DNA of 32,231 bases from Pseudomonadota bacterium (lineage in GTDB: Bacteria; Pseudomonadota; Gammaproteobacteria; Pseudomonadales; Pseudohongiellaceae): positions 1 to 32,231 of the forward strand of contig JADFIJ010000010.1 in the NCBI GenBank assembly GCA_022566775.1. The letters run 5' to 3'. This document shows, piece after piece, positions 25,131 to 32,231 of the stretch. Every line of letters starts with the position of its first letter. Positions within the stretch are counted from its first letter, which is position 1. Both the position numbers and the translations under genes were made by a program. The notes beneath the pieces are model-generated. The model did no database searches, had not been told where the DNA came from, and saw only the letters and a list, made by a program, of their open reading frames with translations.

Positions 25131-25385
25131 TTGAGGCAAGCGTTTCGGAAGAACAGTGCTAAGATCAATCTTGTGCTGCTGGATATTGCCCTGTCTGGAG
25201 TTAGTGGAGTCGACGTGCTCAATCAATTGAAAAAGATCGAGCCTTCTGTGCCAGTAATTTTTATGAGCGCATATATAGAAGATAAATCCGAGGCAATAAG
25301 TTTTGGGGCTGTTGATGCTATCAGGAAGCCATTCGATCTCGAGGATCTTAAAAGACAAGTGCTCGCGGCACTGTCGGAGCGATAA
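25131..25385 (+). pseudogene. Truncated response regulator receiver
   Basis: The frame encodes the middle and end of a receiver domain: Asp18 in VLLDIALSGVSGVDVL, Ser in IFMSAY, and the IRKPFDLEDLK lysine. The first strand and the acidic pair that binds Mg2+ are missing. A TAG stop lies only three codons upstream of the TTG where the frame opens. The stop codon at the other end (CGA TAA) is the first bases of the IS91 derivative that begins at 25380, so both ends look damaged. The start lies 56 bp after the Hpt gene, consistent with a lost third member of the relay operon. Confidence 0.72.
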
Positions 25386-25600
25386 CCCCAAGCGGCGGTG
25401 CCCGCCGCATGGTGGATAGTGCGGCACTGTTAGTGGACGAAGTGCTGCCCAAAAATCCTAAATTTCAGTTATTTGAACGTACTTAACTATGCTGCCAGGG
25501 AAGGTGGCAGAACTGGCTGCGGCCTGGAATTGCAAACAATTCAAAAATGGCTAAATTAGTGGACGGATAACCGCCTAGATTAGTCAATGTCGTGGAGTTT
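25380..25600 (+). mobile_element. Internally deleted IS91-family derivative, copy 1
   Basis: The first part encodes PSGGARRMVDSAALLVDEVLP in one frame, the segment following the N-terminal zinc finger of IS91-type transposases. Near 25451-25465 it switches directly to the sequence that in the longer remnant (1075-1227) surrounds the transposase stop and 3' end. Bases 25380-25506 recur at 32105-32231 with two mismatches and the same deletion junction. The GCGGCGG-TGC-CCGCCGC hairpin at 25392-25408 is part of the coding remnant. The rest of the gap to 25670 shows nothing else. Confidence 0.78.
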
Positions 25601-26298: not shown

Positions 26299-26580
26299 GT
26301 GCTTAATTATCCACTGGAGATACGAAACGCGATCTACACCACCAATGCCATCGAGTCACTTAACAGCGTGGTTCGCAAGGTGATTAAAAACCTAAAGCTA
26401 TTTCCAACCGATGACTCGGCAAAGAAGGTTGTCTACCTGGCAATCGAGGCCGCGTCGAAGAAATGGACAATGCCAATCCGGAATCGGAAAATGGCATTGA
26501 ATAGATTTATGATTGAATTCGAAGACCGGCTGACGGGCTACATTTGAACCTGGCAGTTACACAGAAAACTTTACACCCTC
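26299..26580 (+). pseudogene. IS256-family transposase C-terminal remnant with right inverted repeat
   Basis: Up to 82 codons encode the extreme C-terminus of a mutator-type (IS256) transposase: YPLEIRNAIYTTNAIESLN contains the conserved TTN-A-I-E block with the last catalytic Glu, followed by KLFPTDDSAKKVVYLAIEAA and RFMIEFEDRL. An in-frame TAA lies four codons upstream of GTG 26299, and most of the gene is absent. The right terminal repeat GGCAGTTACACAGAAAAC starts at 26552 and ends near 26580. The stop codon of the next gene, on the minus strand, begins 2 bp later. Confidence 0.85.
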
Positions 26581-26581
26581 A

Positions 26582-27502
26582 TCAAATTCTCAATGACTCC
26601 ACCGAACTAATAATATTCTCCGCATTAATCCGAATGAAATTCTGAAAAGATTCGGCTAAGAGTGATAGTTCTTTTTGTTCCGGATGAACTGAATACCAGG
26701 GTCTTGGTTTCAGTAATGTTTTTAGTTTCAGTTCGATAAGGTATTTAGTTCTAATTTCTAACCAAACGGCGTGTTTGGAAATTATTGAAATGCCGAGACC
26801 TGCCATCACACCTTGCTTTATTGCTGCACTGCTGCCCAATTCCATCACACTGTTAACTGAGATGCCTTTTTCTTTAAAAATCTGTTCAGTCATCATTCTG
26901 GTGCCAGAACCTTCTTCTCGAAATAGAAAATCCTCACCCTCTAGATCGACTAAAGCGATTTTTTTGCGTTTCGCTAGCCGGTGGCCAGGGCGGGCGATAA
27001 CGACTAACGGGTTGCTGAGGACCGGAACTGCAACGACACGCGAATTTTCTGGTACGTGGGCCATAATAACGAGGTCATCGAGGTTATCGTCTATACGTTC
27101 CATTATTTGATTTCGATTGGCCACAGTCAGTTTGAATTTTACATCTGGATAGAGTCTATGAAAGCCACCTAATAGATGTGGAACAAAGAATTTGGCACTG
27201 GTAACGGCTGAAATTTTCAACTCTCCACTCATACCGCACTTCAGTCGAGTTAGTCGTATATTTACGTTCTGTAACTCCTCGAAAATTGCTTTACATGATG
27301 CCAGTAATATCTCACCCGCTGGCGTAAGACACTTTCGTCTACCTATACGTTCGAAAAGTGATATTCCCATTGACTCTTCAAGCTGGCTGATTTGGATGCT
27401 AAGGGCCGGCGGTGTCAAGCACATCGCCTTAGCTGCTTCGCTGAAACTCTTGTTCTCCGCTGTAGCAATAAGCAATTGCAATTGCCTTAATGTAGGCCTC
27501 AT
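26582..27502 (-). CDS. LysR-type regulator, CbbR/CmpR-like
   Basis: This 306-residue LysR protein has a helix-turn-helix at about 18-41 (KSFSEAAKAMCLTPPALSIQISQLEE) and an effector-binding domain of normal length. The N-terminus (LRQLQLLIATAENKSFSEAAKAMCLT) and the EEGSGTR motif in the effector domain resemble CbbR/CmpR-type regulators of carbon-fixation and bicarbonate-uptake genes. It is divergent from a beta-carbonic anhydrase gene, which supports a CO2- or bicarbonate-responsive role (inference). The IS256 right end stops 2 bp after its stop codon, so the last residues may not be the original ones. The palindrome cluster at 27525-27575 is the likely binding site. Confidence 0.85.
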   Translation of the reverse strand: MRPTLRQLQLLIATAENKSFSEAAKAMCLTPPALSIQISQLEESMGISLFERIGRRKCLTPAGEILLASCKAIFEELQNVNIRLTRLKCGMSGELKISAVTSAKFFVPHLLGGFHRLYPDVKFKLTVANRNQIMERIDDNLDDLVIMAHVPENSRVVAVPVLSNPLVVIARPGHRLAKRKKIALVDLEGEDFLFREEGSGTRMMTEQIFKEKGISVNSVMELGSSAAIKQGVMAGLGISIISKHAVWLEIRTKYLIELKLKTLLKPRPWYSVHPEQKELSLLAESFQNFIRINAENIISSVESLRI

Positions 27503-27524
27503 TCGCTGATTCCAGTAATTTTTA

Positions 27525-27575
27525 ATGTTAAATAAAAATATAACATATAGTGAACTATATTTAAATATTATTTAA
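27525..27575. promoter_or_regulatory. Clustered palindromes, likely LysR operator region
   Basis: Four nested or adjacent palindromes occur in 51 bp: ATGTTA-N10-TAACAT (27525-27546), TATAGT-GA-ACTATA (27546-27559), ATATTTAAATAT (27557-27568) and TTAAATA-T-TATTTAA (27561-27575). GTTA-N10-TAAC fits the TTA-N-TAA style of CmpR/CbbR sites apart from spacing. The tract lies between the LysR start (27502) and the carbonic anhydrase start. No promoter is chosen in this AT-rich stretch. Confidence 0.6.
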
Positions 27576-27664
27576 CACATTAATCCGCTAATTTAGCCAC
27601 ACGATCTAAATTTACGACCAAATTGAACCTTGTCGGCTCTAACGCATCTGGTGAAAGAAGTCAC

Positions 27665-28321
27665 GTGATTGAAATACTGCTGGAGCGCTACCGCAACCGT
27701 GATAGTCGTTCCGACGGCAATGCGAAGAATTTACCATTCCTTGATGACTTGGAGCCCGCAATATCGCCGATAGCAGCGATTATTTCCTGCAGTGACACGC
27801 GAATGGAGCCGAGTAGGGTGTTTGAGCTTTATCCCGGCGAAGTGTTTTCGATTCGCAATATCGCCAATCTGGTACCTATCCATTCGAGGCGAAACTATCC
27901 CTGTGAGACAGCTGCGGGGCTAGAGTTTGCCGTCAAGATACTACGCGTCCCGCATATAGTTGTTTTGGGCCACAGTAATTGCATGGGCATTCACACCATG
28001 ATGGAACTCCCCTACTTCTCTGCCAATGATAGCGAGGTTGATCGCTGGGTCCGGCAGGCCAAGCCTATATGTGAGTATCTGGAAAATATTAGTCATCGCT
28101 TGCCCTTGGAGACGCGGGAAAAAAACTGTGAACAAGCATCCATCCGCTTATCGCTTAGTCGATTGACGACCTATCCCTGCATTCGAACCCGTGTTGAAAC
28201 CAATGAATTGGTTTTGCACGGTTGGTACTTCGATTTTAGCGAAGACGAGCTTTTTCGTTTTGATCCCGATAGCGAGTGTTTTATTCGCGATGCTCGCGTT
28301 AAGAAAGCCAAATCAACCTAA
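27665..28321 (+). CDS. Beta-carbonic anhydrase
   Basis: This 218-residue zinc enzyme interconverts CO2 and bicarbonate in the cytosol. Zinc and catalytic residues are visible: Cys42, Asp44 and Arg46 in SCSDTR, and His103 and Cys106 in LGHSNC. The next residues are M-G where the family normally has G-G, a change right next to a zinc ligand. The C-terminal RLTTYPCIRTRVETNELVLH and GWYFDF-like segments are standard. GTG 27665 is chosen because GAAAGAAG lies just upstream and homologs begin about there; TTG 27623 would add 14 residues without a ribosome-binding site. It leads a likely operon with NhaD 35 bp downstream. Confidence 0.9.
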   Translation: MIEILLERYRNRDSRSDGNAKNLPFLDDLEPAISPIAAIISCSDTRMEPSRVFELYPGEVFSIRNIANLVPIHSRRNYPCETAAGLEFAVKILRVPHIVVLGHSNCMGIHTMMELPYFSANDSEVDRWVRQAKPICEYLENISHRLPLETREKNCEQASIRLSLSRLTTYPCIRTRVETNELVLHGWYFDFSEDELFRFDPDSECFIRDARVKKAKST

Positions 28322-28356
28322 TTACTAATGATTATGTTTACTACTGAGAAAACAAA

Positions 28357-29721
28357 TTGGAACTAACAACACACTGGGCTGGGTTACTGGCCATTGCCAT
28401 TTTCATCGCCGCATACACCCTCGTCATCTTCGAAGAGAATATCCACCTGCGGAAGTCCAAGCCGGTTATCGTAGCTGCAGGTTTTATTTGGATGTTGGTT
28501 GCCTTCGCCTATGCAAGCGTTGGGAACACCCATGAAGCTGAGGAATTAATCGGCCACAGCTTGCTCGAATTTGTAGAACTGTTCCTTTTCCTGCTGGCAG
28601 CGATGACCTACGTTAACACAATGCAAGAGCGCGGAATTTTTGCGGTACTGCGTGTATGGTTGATCAATCAGGGATTTTCCTTACGCAAAATATTCTGGTA
28701 CACCGGTGGAATTGCTTTTTTGATGTCACCGATTGCTGACAATCTCACGACGGCACTGGTATTGGCGACGGTGATCATCTCGGTCGGTGGCAATAATCAC
28801 CGCTTCGTAGTTCTGGGCTGCATCAATATCGTCGTTGCCGCTAACGCAGGGGGTGCGTTCAGTCCCTTCGGCGACATTACCACGCTCATGGTTTGGCAGC
28901 AGGGCTTGGTGGAATTCACTCAGTTCTTTTCCCTCGTAGTTCCATCATTGGTTAACTGGTTGGTGACTGCAACCATACTGTCATTCGCGGTGTCGACTGC
29001 CCAGCCTGATCGGGTACACGAAGAAGAAGCACATTTACAATATGGTGCATGGGTGGTCGTAGCCCTGTTTATGGTGACAATCGCCATGGCTGTTTCTGTG
29101 CACAACTTCCTGCATTTACCGCCAGTACTTGGAATGATGACCGGGCTAGGTTTCTTGCAACTGTTTGGTTATTTCCTGCAGCGCCGTGATAGCTCCGAAA
29201 ATCAACAAATCGTAAGTGGGACTGCTCTCAACATAACAACATCTCGTAATGGTAACCTCGAGTCCAATAAAACCGTTTATGACATATACAAAAATCTACG
29301 TAGGGTCGAGTGGGATACGTTGATGTTTTTCTATGGCGTAATCCTATGTGTTGGTGGTCTCGGTGCATTCGGGTACTTGGCTCTCTTATCCGAGCTGATG
29401 TATACGGATTTGGGACCAACCGCTACCAACATTCTTGTAGGAGTCGTTTCCGCTATCGTAGACAACATTCCCGTAATGTTTGCGGTACTTGAGATGAATC
29501 CGGAAATGAGCCTTGGCCAGTGGTTGCTAGTAACGCTGACAGCTGGTGTGGGTGGTTCAATGCTCTCCATTGGTTCTGCAGCCGGCGTTGCTGTCATGGG
29601 TCAGGCGCGAGGCATATACACATTTTTCGCTCACCTAAAATGGACATGGGCTATAGCTGTGGGCTATGGCGCCAGCATTGCAGTGCATTTTATGGTCAAT
29701 GGTGATGCTTTTAGGCTTTAA
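28357..29721 (+). CDS. nhaD: NhaD-type Na+/H+ antiporter
   Basis: This 454-residue membrane protein of the NhaD (ion transporter) family exports Na+ in exchange for H+. The conserved SPIADNLTTALVL motif lies at residues 124-136 and the NAGGAFSPFGDITTLMVW motif at about 163-180, with about eleven membrane helices. A soluble insert of some 40 residues (about 275-315) separates the two halves. TTG 28357 with GAGAAAA upstream is the start; the ATGs at 28328 and 28334 are out of frame. It follows the carbonic anhydrase gene closely. Since CO2 hydration makes H+ and bicarbonate and NhaD brings H+ in, the pair suggests pH, sodium and inorganic-carbon balance (inference). Confidence 0.93.
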   Translation: MELTTHWAGLLAIAIFIAAYTLVIFEENIHLRKSKPVIVAAGFIWMLVAFAYASVGNTHEAEELIGHSLLEFVELFLFLLAAMTYVNTMQERGIFAVLRVWLINQGFSLRKIFWYTGGIAFLMSPIADNLTTALVLATVIISVGGNNHRFVVLGCINIVVAANAGGAFSPFGDITTLMVWQQGLVEFTQFFSLVVPSLVNWLVTATILSFAVSTAQPDRVHEEEAHLQYGAWVVVALFMVTIAMAVSVHNFLHLPPVLGMMTGLGFLQLFGYFLQRRDSSENQQIVSGTALNITTSRNGNLESNKTVYDIYKNLRRVEWDTLMFFYGVILCVGGLGAFGYLALLSELMYTDLGPTATNILVGVVSAIVDNIPVMFAVLEMNPEMSLGQWLLVTLTAGVGGSMLSIGSAAGVAVMGQARGIYTFFAHLKWTWAIAVGYGASIAVHFMVNGDAFRL

Positions 29722-29824
29722 ACATTGAGAAATTACATTTAGGGGAATTCAAATTTTGAATACTCCAGAATCGTAACCGAGACTATTGATTTTGTAGCCT
29801 TCTCACTACTCAGGAAAAACATTA

Positions 29825-30757
29825 ATGGATACAGTAAATAGGATTCTAATCGTATTTGACCTTTATAAAGATTATCGTGAAGAATCAAACCAAGTTCCTG
29901 TCGAGGTTAGAAATGCGATACGGCTTATCTCGGACAAGCAAACAGCACACCTGATTCTTGTAGGTTGTGGTATCGAGGAATACTTACGTGACAGTTATTC
30001 CAAATTTGGGAAAGATGCTATCGCAAAGCGAAGGGAGTATTGCAAAATACTTGAAGGACGATTGAAGGCTGTTGCGGACAAACTGACAAAGCAACATTAT
30101 CAGGTTACATTTAGATTTCTTCGCACATACCCGCGTTACGATCAGATTGCACAATTGAGTAACAAATACGACGTCGATTTGGTCGTTCAACATGTCAATT
30201 CGAATGCATCTCCGCAACGGTTTTTGTCAGCAAATGACAGTTGGCAATTGGTACGGACCTGCCCGCGATCGCTATTAGTCGTTAAAAACAAAGACTGGAA
30301 AAATTCTCCTGTTATCATAGTGGTAGTTGATCCGATGCCTAGTTATCATCGTCCATTGCCTTATCATTCTGCGATTTTGGATGTTGCATTTCAAGCAAAA
30401 GTACAATTGCATGGCAATTTGCATGTGGTACATGCCTACTCTGAATCTCCTTGGCCTTTTTCTAATACTGAGTCGTTAAAAAACAAACATAAAAAGGCTC
30501 TCGTAGAAATGCTATCCGCATATCGCATAGACCCGGAATCTGTTCATCTGGTTGACAAAACGCCGCTCTATGCTTTGTTGGACTATAAAGAAAAACTTGA
30601 GGCGGACATTATAATTATGGATACATTATCCAAATCCAAATTTACAGAAGCAATAAGTGGGAATTTAACAAAAAGTGTACTCGACTATTTGCAGTCGGAT
30701 CTATTGATCGTCAAGCAAAATGATGCAGAGAGCGTTAAAAATGGGTTTGGTCGCTAA
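29825..30757 (+). CDS. Tandem universal stress protein (UspE-like)
   Basis: This 310-residue protein has two Usp domains in tandem (about 5-150 and 160-305), as in UspE. The second ends with the GNLTKSVLDYLQSDLLIVK signature that matches the usual GNTAE...D-L-L-V-V-K end. The first is more diverged and lacks an obvious nucleotide-binding G-x-G motif. UspE-type proteins act in stress resistance and motility in E. coli by an unknown mechanism. It lies 103 bp after nhaD on the same strand; other nhaD- or SulP-type transporter loci also carry Usp proteins (family knowledge). AT-rich codon use matches its neighbours in this block. Confidence 0.85.
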   Translation: MDTVNRILIVFDLYKDYREESNQVPVEVRNAIRLISDKQTAHLILVGCGIEEYLRDSYSKFGKDAIAKRREYCKILEGRLKAVADKLTKQHYQVTFRFLRTYPRYDQIAQLSNKYDVDLVVQHVNSNASPQRFLSANDSWQLVRTCPRSLLVVKNKDWKNSPVIIVVVDPMPSYHRPLPYHSAILDVAFQAKVQLHGNLHVVHAYSESPWPFSNTESLKNKHKKALVEMLSAYRIDPESVHLVDKTPLYALLDYKEKLEADIIIMDTLSKSKFTEAISGNLTKSVLDYLQSDLLIVKQNDAESVKNGFGR

Positions 30758-30789
30758 TTGTCTACAACAGATTTGGACAAGTAATATAT

Positions 30790-30960
30790 ATGAAATGGGT
30801 AAGGATTTGTGCGCTTATTATATTTTTTGGGTTGATAATTATTATCAATGTTTACGCAGCTGAAAGCCTTCGTTGGGGTTATTCTGGTCCTAATGGCCCA
30901 GAGAACTGGTGTGACATTGCCCCAGAATACTTAACTTGTCAGTACCCAAATGGATGTTAA
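30790..30960 (+). pseudogene. Truncated alpha-carbonic anhydrase (N-terminal remnant)
   Basis: A 56-codon ORF starts with a signal peptide (MKWVRICALIIFFGLIIIIN, cleavage near YAA). It continues with LRWGYSGPNGPENWCDIAPEYLTC, which is the conserved N-terminus of secreted alpha-carbonic anhydrases (WGYSG...GPENW...PEY..C). A TAA stop follows GC. The next bases (ATT CCT GAT CTT) could be the remains of the usual Q-S-P-I-D-I motif, so the stop may be a recent nonsense change. None of the three zinc histidines is present. It lies 32 bp after the Usp gene. A periplasmic alpha enzyme with a cytosolic beta enzyme would complete a CO2-handling set; here the alpha gene appears dead. Confidence 0.78.
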
Positions 30961-32104: not shown

Positions 32105-32231
32105 CGATAACCCCAAGCGGCGGTGCCCGCCGCATGGTGGATAGTGCGGCACTGTTAGTGGACGAAGTGCTGCCCAAGAATCCTAAATGTCAGTTATTTG
32201 AACGTACTTAACTATGCTGCCAGGGAAGGTG
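32105..32231 (+). mobile_element. Internally deleted IS91-family derivative, copy 2 (cut by window edge)
   Basis: 127 bp match 25380-25506 with two mismatches, including the same deletion junction after the P-S-G-G-A-R-R-M segment. The left boundary (CGATAACCCC) is identical, while the flanks differ (receiver gene at copy 1, MITE end here). This shows a defined left edge. The right part lies outside the window. Confidence 0.8.

Follow-up and report, generated by a model that had tools for sequence, protein, structure and literature searches.

A CbbR-like LysR regulator divergent from nhaD, with an intervening beta-carbonic anhydrase gene, in a member of the Pseudohongiellaceae

What does a LysR-type regulator related to CbbR control when it stands head to head with genes for a carbonic anhydrase (CA) and a Na+/H+ antiporter? 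The question is raised by an uncultured gammaproteobacterium of the family Pseudohongiellaceae (assembly GCA_022566775.1; 3.4 Mb, 299 contigs, 86% complete), one contig of which, JADFIJ010000010.1 (C241 in our numbering), was analysed over its whole length of 32,231 nucleotides and is hereafter called the window. At positions 26582–30960, a LysR gene on the reverse strand is followed by divergently oriented genes for a beta-CA, the antiporter NhaD and a universal stress protein (Usp), and by an alpha-CA relic. The initial annotation, made from the sequence, had proposed that a cytosolic and a periplasmic CO2-hydrating enzyme, NhaD and Usp form a locus under one CO2-type regulator. Comparison with Pfam, NCBIfam, the Protein Data Bank (PDB) and phmmer matches confirmed the five features in place and identity. 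Along the row, 162 bp separate LysR from the likely GTG start of the CA at 27665, 35 bp (as annotated) the CA from nhaD, 103 bp nhaD from usp and 32 bp usp from the relic. At a little under even confidence, we tentatively favour the reading that nhaD and, in this genome, also a CA answer to a CbbR-derived regulator, the host being a probable non-autotroph. The core of this reading is the divergent LysR/nhaD pair.

The pair recurs in one other genus of the same family, represented by genome G088, whose LysR and NhaD are 73 and 84% identical to those of the window, respectively. On its contig C65, the N-terminal part of LysR runs to base 85, and nhaD begins at base 272 on the opposite strand; the two genes are divergent and adjacent, without a CA, and the remainder of LysR lies on contig C58. 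The intergenic DNA is partly conserved: on the LysR side, 59 of 92 positions are identical in an ungapped comparison at the best of ten offsets, whereas 5000 Markov shuffles put through the same procedure averaged 34.0 and never exceeded 46. Past the LysR-proximal stretch of about 90 bp, identity drops to 30%. An imperfect inverted repeat lies at 27526–27577. At the other end, the sequence around the nhaD start differs little between the two genomes, which also have the TTG start in common. Given the conservation of both the LysR-side DNA and the nhaD start, the window CA sits between the presumed operator and nhaD; it may have been inserted in the window or lost in G088.

The regulator itself carries the Pfam domains HTH_1 and LysR_substrate, and its closest solved structures are CbbR (5y2v, 1.8e-64) and CmpR (5z49, 8.7e-44). 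The CbbR model NF045990 ranked at the top of 52 matching NCBIfam models, but its score of 238.3 bits did not reach the cut-off of 450; no NhaR model was among the 25 listed of these 52 matches, the library's holding of one being unconfirmed. Among 40 regions around LysR homologues, the top-scoring matches picked from a class-wide list (119 of 369 genomes matched), RuBisCO lay within 600 bp in 30. In the final tree, which omitted rows L288, L156, L331 and L032 and added Catenovulum (the first tree had contained long-branch rows), the window and G088 regulators form a pair (100/100), and a node of 64 rows (98/98) unites the window LysR with RuBisCO-linked rows, placing it inside the radiation of RuBisCO-linked LysRs. 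Within this node, a clade of 14 rows (UFBoot 83, SH-aLRT 95) joins it with LysRs linked to pyruvate carboxylase, to a Psychromonas CA and to malate:quinone oxidoreductase (Mqo). Tree and homologue neighbourhoods thus bear out the annotation of LysR as CO2-type, within the CbbR/inorganic-carbon group.

The divergent or neighbouring genes of the closer LysR relatives include those for RuBisCO, the Na+-bicarbonate transporter SbtA, biotin carboxylase, Mqo and a cupin protein, and Pfam confirmed one example of each type. The cupin label was given to eight rows; neighbours were read for L069 and L075, with Pfam for L075, and the six rows assigned unread bear on no conclusion. In Catenovulum, LysR is divergent from biotin carboxylase, followed by oadA, and on Cereibacter plasmids the LysR match also overlaps a gene annotated as sodium-dependent bicarbonate permease. 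In two Psychromonas loci (L142 and L143), a CbbR-like LysR is divergent from a beta-CA that has no close codirectional gene behind it. As a separate observation, a close LysR relative (44%) faces Mqo in L065 and L066 (genomes G091 and G135; Pfam on L065), an unexpected partner for a CbbR-like regulator.

The RuBisCO family PF00016 was unmatched in the host assembly, which is 86% complete (the control was positive in 5 of 14 genomes), and DabA was not found in that assembly either. The linkage to the Calvin cycle in its own genome that marks a CbbR was not found. Given the kinship with CbbR and the failure to find RuBisCO or DabA, the window LysR is a CbbR relative in a probable non-autotroph.

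From these observations we infer DNA binding, co-transcription, an effector and a physiological role as follows. A LysR from within the CbbR radiation would bind the common AT-rich intergenic DNA and control itself and nhaD. With the beta-CA lying between operator and nhaD, the LysR-controlled promoter would serve the CA and nhaD, and possibly usp; that LysR would drive the CA follows from position only. The CA would convert CO2 to HCO3- and H+, and NhaD would import H+ and expel Na+. Together they may feed carboxylases and hold the pH of the cytoplasm below that of an alkaline, Na+-rich and CO2-poor exterior. That CO2, pH and Na+ are coupled physiologically in this way is plausible, and the idea has a published counterpart in the form of gene content: for alkalitolerant Nitrospira, the part of the report available to us proposes Na+/H+ antiporters, Na+-driven bicarbonate uptake and CA (PMC7784846), with a similar logic in which Na+/H+ exchange is tied to HCO3- and CA at high pH but, in that part, no common locus or regulator. 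A more far-reaching version, which we regard as unlikely, is that the CbbR-derived regulator, freed from carbon fixation in a non-autotrophic host, is now a CO2/bicarbonate-status switch for Na+/H+ exchange and that a captured CA puts CO2 hydration and proton import under one signal.

Table 1. Features of the LysR–nhaD locus and its border in the window
Feature	Position	Strand	Basis
LysR-type regulator, CbbR-like group, 306 aa	26582..27502	-	Pfam; NCBIfam; PDB relatives; trees
AT-rich divergent intergenic stretch, presumed LysR operator/promoter	27503..27594		conservation with G088; operator function inferred
Beta-carbonic anhydrase, 218 aa from likely GTG	27665..28321	+	Pro_CA; invariant columns
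Na+/H+ antiporter NhaD, 454 aa, TTG start	28357..29721	+	NF038006; likeness to G088
Divergent universal stress protein, 310 aa	29825..30757	+	Pfam Usp; UspE model below cut-off
Alpha-carbonic anhydrase relic, 56 aa	30790..30957	+	phmmer; no Pfam match
Mutator-type transposase C-terminal relic bordering the locus	26299..26547	+	PF00872 positions 323-377 of 379

The antiporter clears the NCBIfam model NF038006 with 558.9 bits (cut-off 80) and stays below the cut-off of TIGR00775 (389.8 against 577.1); motifs that we take to be those of NhaD are present. Both the window NhaD and its G088 counterpart (L092:272-1636) start at TTG without the extra N-terminal stretch of other NhaDs, and their open frames measure 457 aa, compared with 477–525 for the full-length same-genus matches listed. 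In addition, the host genome and two congeners have nhaD relics of 26–32 residues (65–72% identical) flanked by a housekeeping-type beta-CA and a ptsP-like gene (names by eye), at G000:C256 (L379:5077-5154), G065:C102 (L378:4886-4981) and G071:C45 (L377:5056-5142). An older nhaD seems to have stood convergent with a CA at this site and then decayed, and it may have been replaced by the intact window nhaD.

The open reading frame of the beta-CA begins at TTG 27623; judged by eye, the GTG chosen here, preceded by gaaagaag, is more likely to be the start. The protein matches Pfam Pro_CA (1.3e-38; 133.1 bits against a cut-off of 25.7), and C42, D44, R46, H103 and C106 are among the invariant columns of nine aligned sequences; we take C42, H103 and C106 to be the putative Cys-His-Cys zinc ligands, and D44 and R46 presumably form the Asp-Arg dyad. 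The score against the carbonate dehydratase equivalog NF007756 (59.6) did not reach the cut-off of 251. In its own genome the CA matches only itself and one housekeeping-type CA, and the nearest homologue among the matches listed in 146 relatives is 42% identical.

Several findings weigh against the reading that we favour. An orthologous LysR (E <= 1e-65) was found in only 2 of 137 family genomes, namely the host and G088. The 14-row clade that ties LysR to HCO3- enzymes falls short of the 95 bootstrap mark and takes in Mqo, which is not a bicarbonate enzyme. The best other CA homologues from 390 sampled genomes of the order, the host included, reach 36–39% identity, and a quick CA tree puts the window CA, weakly placed, on a very long branch; a sister relationship to the Psychromonas CA, which we had considered, did not appear in that tree. 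A scan for promoter-like and terminator-like sites gave no more of them in the locus than in shuffles, so that any transcription units are putative. Several relics and repeats surround the locus. Finally, the co-conservation of CA and nhaD, whose lack the initial annotation had named as a refutation, did not appear in what was searched: of 82 NhaD regions besides the window, extending at most 8 kb to each side and cut at contig ends, 0 held a CA, and of the best 80 CA loci in named genomes, extending at most 6 kb to each side, 0 held NhaD. The NhaD regions comprised 60 from a list with 140 of 369 genomes matched and 22 from one with 63 of 146; the window was excluded, L336 was dropped because it held no NhaD, and only the best NhaD was counted where a region held two.

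None of the four gene families counted was significantly enriched within 2 kb of the 82 NhaD genes relative to the outer flanks: CA occurred 0 times (0 farther out), SulP 3 (1; binomial p 0.065), LysR 1 (3) and Usp 1 (1), the Usp count being a lower bound because the profile is weak (11 matches in 376 loci). Six of 24 records of NhaD-bearing plasmids were opened; none had an annotated CA, one had SulP adjoining NhaD and two had an annotated Usp in that place. Conservation of the whole row was rejected. No other genome examined has CA and nhaD adjacent; the pair comes from a single assembly and does not qualify as a conserved system. A literature search found no report joining NhaD, carbonic anhydrase and LysR, and none joining CbbR, pyruvate carboxylase and LysR; two papers naming NhaD and carbonic anhydrase describe no such locus in the parts available to us. 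The initial annotation is thus supported in part, for the kinship of LysR and for the divergent LysR–nhaD pair, which recurs with part of its intergenic DNA, and not for CA and nhaD as a co-conserved unit in the regions and loci searched.

Elsewhere, genes for LysRs, CAs, bicarbonate transporters and Na+/H+ antiporters are combined in varied ways, but in numbers too small for a statistical claim. Congeners have a LysR of a different type opposite a beta-CA, with SulP next to the CA in 11 of the 13 loci L020–L032; of the other two, one has short SulP matches and one has none (the partial LysRs of L021 and L032 were labelled type A by profiles, and the first tree put L032 with the other type). 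In G084, a LysR of this other type stands opposite NhaD, with SulP behind the antiporter gene, and SulP adjoins NhaD in Sulfuricella pSCD and, 18 bp apart, in G211. The Actibacterium plasmid pNS6001 (L091), typed as conjugative, carries a LysR divergent from a zinc finger gene, a beta-CA, NhaA, two Usp and a P-type ATPase. It shares with the window a divergent LysR, beta-CA, Na+/H+ antiporter and Usp in the same order, but its antiporter is NhaA, its LysR belongs to another group (25% identity) and the zinc finger gene precedes the CA. We also considered whether this CA–NhaA–Usp set is widespread, and rejected the idea: the closest NhaA on another plasmid shares 48% identity, and none of the three NhaA neighbourhoods inspected, out of 1022 records, has an annotated CA.

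Among described systems, CbbR and its LysR relatives at RuBisCO, sbtA and pyruvate carboxylase loci belong to the same subfamily and have a neighbouring, often divergent layout; the window differs in its host, in which no RuBisCO was found, in its partners nhaD and CA, and in a score below the NCBIfam CbbR cut-off. As far as the available part of the source goes, PycR adjoins a pyruvate carboxylase operon (PMC5059739). The can2–sulP genes of Acidithiobacillus ferrooxidans likewise place a cytoplasmic beta-CA beside a membrane transporter, but the transporter is SulP, no Na+/H+ antiporter is involved and the host is autotrophic; according to the part of that report available to us, their transcripts drop as CO2 rises, and its authors suggest bicarbonate uptake or proton homeostasis (PMC6458275).

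Part of this evidence fits a Na+/pH circuit akin to NhaR–NhaA of Escherichia coli, where a LysR-type regulator also lies beside a Na+/H+ antiporter gene, although there the antiporter is NhaA rather than NhaD, the genes nhaA and nhaR are in tandem rather than divergent, and no CA is present. If LysR and nhaD formed such a circuit, the CA would be a chance arrival in the gap, without any coupling of CO2 to Na+/H+ exchange. The CA-free pair of G088 agrees with this, as do the lack of a second CA–nhaD pair in the NhaD regions and CA loci examined, the lack of a near CA homologue in the sample of the order, and the repeats and transposase relic close by. However, relatives of this LysR adjoin inorganic-carbon genes, CA included, in other genomes, and the NCBIfam matches listed contain no NhaR model, with the reservation about the library noted above; we hold the circuit to be a real possibility, though on balance improbable. 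Alternatively, LysR and the CA could be the functional pair, as in Psychromonas, with nhaD and usp transcribed separately from inside or behind the CA. Divergent LysR/CA arrangements in Psychromonas and, with the other LysR type, in congeners make this conceivable, yet G088 retains LysR–nhaD without a CA, the gap between CA and nhaD is short, and the CA tree, weakly supported, keeps the window CA apart from that of Psychromonas; we consider this quite unlikely.

The surroundings suggest a further explanation, in which the locus is a decaying acquired segment, CA and Usp are losing function and the gene order is meaningless. The alpha-CA relic matches an alpha-CA by phmmer (5.5e-7) in residues 20-52, the first part only, and consists of an N-terminal hydrophobic, signal-like stretch (by eye) and about 30 further residues; an intact catalytic domain is absent. 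Because only this relic remains, a working periplasmic CA, counted by the initial annotation among the set, is not encoded at the locus. The border carries the transposase relic, and a 127-bp direct repeat (98%) at 25380–25506 and 32105–32231 brackets 6.7 kb and ends the contig. A 261-bp repeat query gave ten matches in the host genome, two of them the bracketing copies and eight at further places, and was present in 5 of 28 relatives; the direct repeat is the relic of a multi-copy element. The GC content of the stretch is mostly below that of the first 21 kb, and the CA is very divergent. All of this would suit decay, but the frames of LysR, CA, NhaD and Usp are all open, the putative catalytic columns of the CA are retained, and LysR and NhaD resemble their G088 counterparts as described; we regard this explanation as very unlikely.

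Usp was likewise placed in the set by the initial annotation, and this is not supported. It matches Pfam Usp (4.1e-12; 47.3 against a cut-off of 24) in its second half only, residues 185-297, and does not reach the UspE equivalog model (84 against 227). Downstream of NhaD, G088 has a Usp with two matched stretches, then a convergent gene for a CPA2-like antiporter (family name by eye), and the two Usps are 24% identical over 180 residues. Rfam and tRNA scans gave no match. Outside the row, a receiver-domain gene lies at 25131–25385, downstream of genes for Hpt and, by eye, for a histidine kinase and a response regulator; it matches only positions 40-109 of the 111 in its family and is apparently truncated at the front.

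CbbR-type regulators are known for carbon fixation, and here two genera have one opposite the gene of a Na+/H+ antiporter and conserve some of the DNA between them. Under the reading that we favour, in which the regulator would control nhaD, the LysR–nhaD pair is a concrete candidate for pH and Na+ homeostasis regulated by carbon status.

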